This document shows, one piece after another, positions 18,809 to 33,030 of a stretch of 38,837 bases of DNA. Origin of the DNA: an uncultured Clostridia bacterium (GTDB lineage: Bacteria; Bacillota; Clostridia; TANB77; CAG-508); contig CANQKT010000049.1 of the NCBI GenBank assembly GCA_947624525.1, forward strand, positions 1 to 38,837, given 5' to 3'. The translations under genes were made by a program, and so were the position numbers. A model generated the notes under the pieces. It was not told the DNA's origin. It ran no database searches and saw only the letters and a program-made list of their open reading frames with translations. Numbering within the stretch: position 1 is the stretch's first letter; each line of letters begins with the position of its first letter.

Positions 18809-19045
18809 TGCAATTAGGAAGTTAATATAAGAATTATGTAAAAGTAGGAAGTATATTAACATTCCGTACGCTTACTGGCTTGTTCTTATCAAAAGGCAAA
18901 AGGGACTTTTTGTTGGAAGAAGGTTTTTGTTTTTGCTTGTCCCTTTTGCGTCTTTTGATAAGCCTCGCCAAACTGCGCGCTTTGTACTCCATTGTTAATA
19001 TACTTCCTACTTTTACATAATTCTTATATTAACTTCCTAATTGCA
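18809..19045. repeat. long palindromic element, copy B
   Basis: 52-bp perfect inverted repeat (18809-18860 / 18994-19045); nested inner hairpin cttatcaaaaggcaaaagggac ... gtcccttttgcgtcttttgataag. Confidence 0.9.
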
Positions 19046-20235: not shown

Positions 20236-20318
20236 ATAGATAAGGTGAAAGATATACTGAATATATATGTATAATTACATATTTTAAAAGCTGTAAATAG
20301 TTGGAGGTATTATATAGT

Positions 20319-22693: not shown

Positions 22694-22887
22694 TCGTTAA
22701 GTTGCATACTTAATCAATTTCTATACACTTTTATTTTACCATAGATTAATATATTTTCAAGTGTTTTTTCAAAAAAATATTTTAGAAAATTTTGGTGTAC
22801 AAGTTATACATTAAAAATTTTGCAAAGTATTGATATATCAGTAAATTATTGAATTTTAGTATTATCATAAAGTATGCAACTTAATGA
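22694..22887. repeat. putative invertible promoter segment 2: IR-L 22694-22716, IR-R 22865-22887
   Basis: IR-L tcgttaagttgcatacttaatca vs reverse complement of IR-R tcattaagttgcatactttatga (20/23 identical, 15-bp contiguous core). Confidence 0.8.
22733..22760 (-). promoter_or_regulatory. minus-strand promoter inside segment 2
   Basis: TTGAAA-N16-TAAAAT on minus strand, extended -10 TGg. Confidence 0.7.
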
Positions 22888-22971: not shown

Positions 22972-24432
22972 ATGAAAAAAGATAAGAAGATAAGATTAAA
23001 TATATTAATTGTATTATCATTGTTAATAATAATACTGGCGTCAACTATAGGCTTATATGCTTGGTCAAAATATACCAGTTCATCTTCAGGCGATGCAACA
23101 GCACAAGTAGCAAAATGGAATTTCAAATTAAAGGGAAATTCTACAGCTGAAGCAGAAAACACAAATTTTGCAGTAACAAGAACAGATAGCAATACATCGG
23201 TAGAAACAGGAAAATTAGCTCCAGGAACAAATGGAAAATTTGAAATGGTAGTAGATACAACAGGGACAGAAGTGTCATTGGTTTATAATATAGTATTAAC
23301 ATTAACAAACTGTCCACAGAATTTATTATTTTATAAAGATGCAGAATATCAAAACGAATTGCCAAAAGTAAGCAATAACGGAGTAGATAAATTATATATA
23401 AAAGAATATGTACCAGTAAGTGAAGATAGTGTAAAAAATGGACAACATAATGAAATTCTTTACTGGAGATGGAAATATGAGACAGGTACAAGATCTTGGG
23501 AGAAAGACAATAATGATGAACAGGATACAAACGATAAAGGAAAAACAATGACAATGAAAATAGTGGCAACAGGAACAGAGGTAATGCAGGAGCCAACATA
23601 TACATTGGAAGAACTGGTAAGAACAGCTAAAATACAAATAGGTGACGAGGTAGATTATAATGCAGTAAAAGAGTCAGGAATATCTCTGACAAATGCAAAT
23701 GACACTACCTATATTGCAACAGCTGACAAGACAGGAAGAAGTGAAAATCAAACTTTTAATGTAGAAAGTAATATGAAATGGAGAGTATTAAGTAGAAATG
23801 CACAAAAAGGAACAATAGAAATAATATCAGAGAATGGTACAACAAATAAATTAGCATTATATGGACAAGCAGGATTTATAAATTCAAAAGAAGTATTAGA
23901 TGAAATAGGAAAAATATATAGTTATGGAGAAGGAGCAGAAGAAGGAAGTGGAAGAAGTATAGATATAGGAGATATAGAAAAATACTCAAGTTATGAGCCA
24001 GAAACTTATTTAAATTCTAAAGTTAATTGCTATTGTGGAGAAACATATACATATAACTCTGGGACTTTTATTAAAGAGCGAATAGATAAAGAAACAGGAG
24101 AAGTAATAGGATATGAAAATCAAACAGAGCAAGCGAGTAGCAATCATCCAGTAACAATGCATGCAACACACTATTGGTATACTGCCCAGAAGAATTTTTT
24201 CGCAAATCAAGAAAAAGCCTACGAAGTGCTATTCAAGAACTCAGAAGGACAAAATAAAAATATTTACTGGCTTGCCTCACGCAGTGTTTTCTTTGACCTT
24301 AGCAGTTGCAGTTTTGATGTGCGCAGTGTGAACGACGGAGTTGTGGCCGGCTACAGCTTGTATAATTCTGACGGAAACAGCAACTACCAACGGTTTTGCT
24401 GTTTGCCCAGTAGTGACACTAAAATTAAATAA
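22972..24432 (+). CDS. SipW-type signal peptide surface protein with C-terminal DGR-target-like (C-type-lectin-like) domain
   Basis: GLYAWSKYTSSSSGDATAQVAKWNF; WRVLSRNAQKGTIEIISE...; ...IYWLASRSVFFDLSSCSFDVRSVNDGVVAGYSLYNSDGNS. Confidence 0.75.
   Translation: MKKDKKIRLNILIVLSLLIIILASTIGLYAWSKYTSSSSGDATAQVAKWNFKLKGNSTAEAENTNFAVTRTDSNTSVETGKLAPGTNGKFEMVVDTTGTEVSLVYNIVLTLTNCPQNLLFYKDAEYQNELPKVSNNGVDKLYIKEYVPVSEDSVKNGQHNEILYWRWKYETGTRSWEKDNNDEQDTNDKGKTMTMKIVATGTEVMQEPTYTLEELVRTAKIQIGDEVDYNAVKESGISLTNANDTTYIATADKTGRSENQTFNVESNMKWRVLSRNAQKGTIEIISENGTTNKLALYGQAGFINSKEVLDEIGKIYSYGEGAEEGSGRSIDIGDIEKYSSYEPETYLNSKVNCYCGETYTYNSGTFIKERIDKETGEVIGYENQTEQASSNHPVTMHATHYWYTAQKNFFANQEKAYEVLFKNSEGQNKNIYWLASRSVFFDLSSCSFDVRSVNDGVVAGYSLYNSDGNSNYQRFCCLPSSDTKIK
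24268..24420 (+). other. putative DGR variable-region-like segment
   Basis: locally GC-rich block dominated by NNC codons (GCC CGC TTC GAC AGC TGC CGC AAC GAC GCC GGC TAC AGC ... GAC AAC AGC AAC TAC) in an otherwise A/T-ending gene. Confidence 0.55.
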
Positions 24433-24558
24433 TCAAATGAATAAAAATGCAGAGGGAGAATGGAAATTAATAAATGCTCAAAACTAAAAGTGAAAAAATA
24501 AAAGATGATAGTGGAATATGTGAGATAATAACCAGATAGAATATCCTGTAAAAAAAGA

Positions 24559-32815: not shown

Positions 32816-33030
32816 GTCAAATTCAATAGTTATGTAAAAGGGAGAAATATATTAACATTTCGTACGCTTACTGGCTTGGACTTATCAAAAGGCAAAAGGG
32901 ACTTTTATATAGAAGAAAGTAAACTTTTATGTTTGTCCCTTTTACTTCTTTTGATAAGCCTCTCCAAACTGCGCGCTTTGTACTCCATTGTTAATATATT
33001 TCTCCCTTTTACATAACTATTGAATTTGAC
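32816..33030. repeat. long palindromic element, copy C
   Basis: 41-bp perfect inverted repeat 32816-32856 / 32990-33030; central ~130 bp nearly identical to copy B. Confidence 0.9.

Follow-up and report, generated by a model that had tools for sequence, protein, structure and literature searches.

Diversity-generating retroelements (DGRs) use an error-prone reverse transcriptase (RT) that copies the RNA of a template repeat (TR) and misreads its adenines, and the resulting cDNA takes the place of the variable region (VR) in the 3' terminal part of a target gene. Asparagine AAY codons of the template are thereby turned into NNY codons, free at their first two bases. A second kind of system, invertible promoters, serves phase variation of surface proteins in gut bacteria (for which Jiang et al. 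2019 is cited). DGR targets that lie remote from their RT and TR and are diversified in trans have been documented (PMC10907252), and the large 2021 DGR survey declares that such remote targets escape its method (PMC8144416).

The window analysed here, a stretch of 38,837 nucleotides, is contig C49 of a draft assembly (G000; 1.39 Mb, 58 contigs, 96.7% complete) that was searched and read in stretches. Its forward strand carries an open reading frame of 486 aa (22972..24432) for a surface protein that is either anchored in the membrane or secreted. It has a hydrophobic signal or anchor at the N-terminus, a secreted middle part and a C-terminal domain that bears the variable tail; the annotated stop at 24432 lies past a frame break described below. 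The tail lies in the 3' terminal part of the coding sequence (24268-24411 of a gene that starts at 22972 and ends at 24432 or 24487) and, judged from its sequence, is very probably the VR of a DGR target. Neither Pfam nor NCBIfam returned anything useful for the target domain when scanned with the protein, and a scan of genome contigs with the window protein as query gave no match. The best homologue elsewhere in the genus, with one genome per species compared, is 35% identical. Paralogues in the same assembly include C6:1532-3106 (C6b) and C30:3963-5546 (C30b). On contig C19 (1-8139; L162), five short genes paralogous to the N-terminal domain are clustered, some in one orientation and some in the other; their N-termini are near-identical, and VR tails are absent from them. 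The window also contains two copies, 84% identical, of a MITE-like repeat of ~210 bp (18809-19045 and 32816-33030), with perfect inverted-repeat ends of 53 and 42 nt and 131 nt between them.

The sequence-only reading had described an abrupt shift from A/T-ending codons to a GC-rich block full of NNC codons, and the counts agree with it. The block, which runs for 84 bases from GCCTCACGCAG to CTACAGC, lies exactly at 24274-24357 and has G or C at 45 of the 84 positions. In the in-frame part of the VR (24268..24387, forward strand; WLASRSVFFDLSSCSFDVRSVNDGVVAGYSLYNSDGNSNY), whose peptide framework was also given there as it stands, 23 of 40 codons end in G or C, against 78/432 upstream in the gene (Fisher p = 1.7e-7). 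NNY codons make up 32 of the 40 and NNC codons 18; upstream of the VR the gene has 34% NNY and 18% GC3. Among 4446 forty-codon blocks drawn from the other ORFs of the window and from four other stretches of the assembly, the means were 17.5 NNY codons and 6.3 GC3 codons, and the values of the VR were reached by only one block for NNY and two for GC3. Adenine accounts for 19% of the VR and 42% of the whole window, and this GC-rich, A-poor composition is like that of one TR/VR pair in the genus. When six stretches of the assembly (~100 kb) were scanned for 40-codon blocks rich in NNY and GC3, ignoring sequence, only the window VR and the VRs of paralogues on contigs C6 and C18 were returned. This ties the window block to a pair of VRs that carries the DGR signature. 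No DNA copy of the block was found elsewhere in its assembly, and a DNA search with the VR in 195 genomes of the family gave, besides the VR itself, only short matches, mostly to its AT-rich 3' part.

The DGR signature is found in paralogues with a second type of tail (GYWLASPSAD...CLPSD), located at C6:192-1142 (L062; C6a), C18:152-1471 (L160, reverse strand) and C22:231-1595 (L161, reverse strand), the last of which has drifted. The VRs of C6a and C18 differ at 14, 10 and 2 sites in codon positions 1, 2 and 3, respectively, and the corresponding differences in the parts upstream are 63, 47 and 69. The pattern in the VRs is exactly the one expected from adenine-directed mutation of AAY codons in a template, and it is unlike ordinary divergence.

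Complete DGRs were identified in two relatives, G150 of the same genus and G168 of the same family, and DGR-type RTs are present in many genomes of the family. On contig C21 of G150 (CAMEHU010000021.1, labelled uncultured Lachnospiraceae), the genes are ordered target, MutS_I protein, bAvd-like protein, TR and an RT bearing the DGR-type motif GNMTSQ, and the target is the closest homologue of the window protein outside its own genome. Over 150 positions, TR and VR mismatch 22 times here; 20 of the mismatches fall at TR adenines and the other two at the 3' end. The same target framework recurs in the DGRs of G150:C33 and G168:C42, where 28 of 38 and 20 of 27 TR/VR mismatches, respectively, fall at TR adenines and most of the non-A changes lie at the ends of the repeat. 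Shared between the window protein and the targets of the relatives is the framework W-L/V-A/S-S/A-R-x-V ... F-x-V-R ... G-x-V ... L-Y/F-N ... P-V. In both G150 and G168 the bAvd-like protein adjoins the RT; that of G150:C21 matches PF22296 and NF033474, below both curated cut-offs. The RT of G168:C42 is intact (346 aa, motifs IGAMTSQ and YVRYQDDF).

Two features of these cassettes were noted in passing. Between the target and bAvd, both of the DGRs that were checked encode a small protein with MutS domain I (PF01624; L064:7019-7474 and L072:6841-7308), which is likely a DGR accessory. Both G150 RTs (C21 and C33), which are paralogous (L064:8245-9260 and L165:3503-4531), are interrupted by a frame break at one shared site, immediately before GNMTSQ/GSMTSQ. 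The overlap in the L064 RT contains GGGTTTA in X XXY YYZ phase, and the L165 RT has a second break; a conserved break, decay or a programmed frameshift are possible readings.

Comparison with the templates of the three complete DGRs (G150:C21, G150:C33, G168:C42) defined 16 columns at which at least two of the three have Asn. At these columns the window carries 15 codons, every one of them NNY. Setting aside the AAx codons leaves 11, again all NNY, against a background of 0.343 (p = 7.6e-6, computed as if codons were independent and sensitive to the alignment). Alternation is frequent among the Asn columns (8/10, 13/15/17, 20/22 and 25/27 in the VR), which suggests one face of a strand. The VR most likely serves to diversify a binding face. 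The template behind the tail would have been similar to the family's type-1 templates (WLASRxVNxNxxNCNFNVRNVNxGNVNxNNLYNSxGN...). Mismatches of the window VR were biased to the adenines of the three foreign templates with p = 0.02, 0.10 and 0.23, one of which is significant; such a weak bias is expected if none of the three is the window's own template. No partner VR sharing a template with the window VR was found. Identity between the window protein and its C6 paralogue amounts to 88-98% in the first, N-terminal 240 columns of the alignment and to 42% in the VR, and the tails of C6b and C30b differ from the window VR at third codon positions too. These two tails keep the framework, with NNY at 11/16 and 10/16 of the Asn columns, the strict NNY pattern having decayed in both.

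The reading frame is broken by one nucleotide within the 3' part of the VR (24383..24392, forward strand), a frame change near 24388 that the sequence-only reading had missed. The annotated frame ends in QRFCCLPSSDTKIK and a stop, and the conserved C-terminus GFAVCPVVTLKLNNQMNKNAEGEWKLINAQN with its own stop (24392..24487, forward strand) is intact in another frame. In the paralogues C6b and C30b this C-terminus is in frame, where 8 codons separate the framework G-(N/Q/S) from CPV; in the window this interval is longer by one nucleotide. The break may be real, or it may be an error that arose when a mixed population was collapsed into a consensus.

In order to locate the machinery, the 96.7%-complete bin was searched for an RT (with PF00078 and the genus RT), for Avd (with the genus bAvd as query) and for a TR (by DNA, by degenerate template pattern and by Asn-rich template peptide), and none of the three was found in it, which, in an incomplete bin, need not mean absence from the cell. 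The type-2 template pattern matched only the two VRs on C6 and C18 in the assembly, and the weakest peptide match, C1:93215, was rejected as a TR. Viral contigs scanned with the VR and the genus RT gave no match, and a scan of genome contigs with the genus RT matched only the G150 contig. The proposal of the sequence-only reading, a DGR-type variable region whose RT and TR lie elsewhere, has good support from the homology to complete DGRs in the genus and family, from NNY at the Asn columns and from the C6a/C18 pair; the RT and TR did not come to light in the bin.

The variation in the VR would have a trans or past origin, with RT, bAvd and TR either acting in trans from DNA outside the bin or recently lost. 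These are two versions of the same VR explanation. In the first, an RT and TR on an unbinned contig, plasmid or prophage are still diversifying the tails, and the frame break comes either from an erroneous consensus of mixed reads or from a dead allele carried by the population. To this version we would give not quite an even chance. It accords with the fresh composition of three VRs and with the near restriction of C6a/C18 differences to positions 1 and 2, with the occurrence of DGR-type RTs across the family and with remote targets documented elsewhere (PMC10907252, PMC8144416); moreover, the bin is split into 58 contigs, and some of those bearing paralogues are very short (C22, 4.3 kb; C19, 8.1 kb). 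Standing against it is the outcome of the machinery searches, the negative viral-contig scans included.

In the second version, a past DGR wrote the tails, RT, Avd and TR were then lost, and the VRs have since been drifting, the frame break being part of their decay. This is a serious possibility, if the lesser of the two. Besides the absence of RT, Avd and TR from the bin, it would account for the broken frame of the window VR and for the C6b and C30b tails that lack the strict NNY pattern. Another genome of the same genus, G163, offers a parallel: its three paralogues (C48, C13 and C35; L070, L164 and L168) are nearly identical in their upstream flanks and diverge strongly in their VR-like tails, where third codon positions vary too, and no RVT_1 match was found in this genome. 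However, the composition of the window, C6a and C18 VRs is unameliorated, so that any loss of the machinery would have to be recent, and repeat-rich, hypervariable loci can escape draft bins.

Outside the VR explanation, a fast-evolving or horizontally acquired tail, produced by paralogue recombination or imported cassettes and GC-richer by chance, is improbable: it would suit the lack of a TR in the bin and the divergence from C6b that reaches beyond the VR into the codons just upstream (40% amino acid identity), as in segment exchange, but it leaves unexplained the NNY codons at template Asn columns, the third-position conservation between the C6a and C18 VRs and the homology to complete DGRs of the same genus.

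Returning to the VR explanation, we modelled the VR-bearing domain of C6b, an intact paralogue, by AF2 from 27 sequences, obtaining a pLDDT of 87 and a pTM of 0.87. Foldseek with this model gave no significant match in the PDB, and neither did a profile search against the PDB; the best viral matches of the model were weak, and two of the top three were named DUF6273. The C-type-lectin (or Ig) fold expected for the VR domain was thus neither confirmed nor excluded by the model and the fold search.

The region upstream of the gene has the anatomy of an invertible promoter. Two inverted-repeat arms (left, 22694..22714, forward strand; right, 22867..22887, reverse strand) flank a segment with a sigma-70-like match (TTGAAA-16-TAAAAT, 10/12; 22733..22760, reverse strand) that points away from the gene and would, if real, represent the OFF orientation. 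Such sites are no more frequent than expected from shuffling, and a similar motif lies in most of the other inner segments. Inverted repeats of this kind precede nine paralogues in the assembly, those starting at 20301, 22972 and 24898 in the window and others on C6, C22 and C30. Their arms measure 15-23 nt, their inner segments 145-162 nt, and they end 42-92 nt before the start codon, with all nine inner segments in one orientation in the assembly. By their layout, these segments are probably invertible promoters, and matches to the tyrosine recombinase family PF00589 are present on five contigs of the assembly. No inverted repeat of this kind was found upstream of the C18 paralogue. Upstream of the G150 target lies a perfect inverted repeat of 37 nt, which was rejected as conserved evidence for promoter inversion, its inner part being a nested palindrome that gives it a MITE-like look. 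Given this MITE-like palindrome and the C18 paralogue without an inverted repeat, the combination of inverted repeats with DGR targets is not general.

The window protein had been proposed to be both switchable and hypervariable. Switchability stands as far as the anatomy of the nine inverted repeats goes; the tail may still be hypervariable, but the allele is frame-broken and no RT, Avd or TR was found in the bin. That two systems are stacked on one family of surface proteins in a gut-type bacterium, with invertible promoters selecting among at least nine paralogues and a trans-acting DGR rewriting several of their tips, is plausible, though less likely than not. If switching is real, the cell combines a choice of surface protein with the rewriting of its tip, and this joining of promoter inversion to a DGR tail is, if true, the interesting part. 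No description of surface-protein choice and tip rewriting on one gene was found in the portions of the literature covered by the search.

The inverted repeats resemble the invertible promoters of gut bacteria in arm length, in the length of the inner segment and in distance to the start codon; they differ in that no inversion was observed, and all nine segments share one orientation in the assembly. The Thiohalocapsa PB-PSB1 DGRs, which act on remote targets in trans (PMC10907252), likewise have VR genes without a local RT or TR, but there the remote TR was identified, whereas none was found here. With the cellular DGRs that have membrane-anchored targets (Roux et al. 2021, PMC8144416), the locus shares an N-terminal membrane segment, a C-terminal VR and the AAY-to-NNY pattern of codons, and its genus relatives also share the placement of RT, bAvd and TR beside the target. 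It departs from them in a target and machinery that do not share a bin, several targets per genome, invertible-promoter-like repeats before the targets and a domain in which the lectin fold is not recognised. The cassettes of G150:C21, G150:C33 and G168:C42 have a homologous target domain and the same VR framework as the window; in contrast to the window, RT, bAvd, the MutS_I protein and TR adjoin the target there. Surveys that look for a VR beside an RT overlook targets far from their machinery (PMC8144416). The codon-composition scan by itself picked out three VRs in ~100 kb, and orphan targets can therefore be found without an RT.
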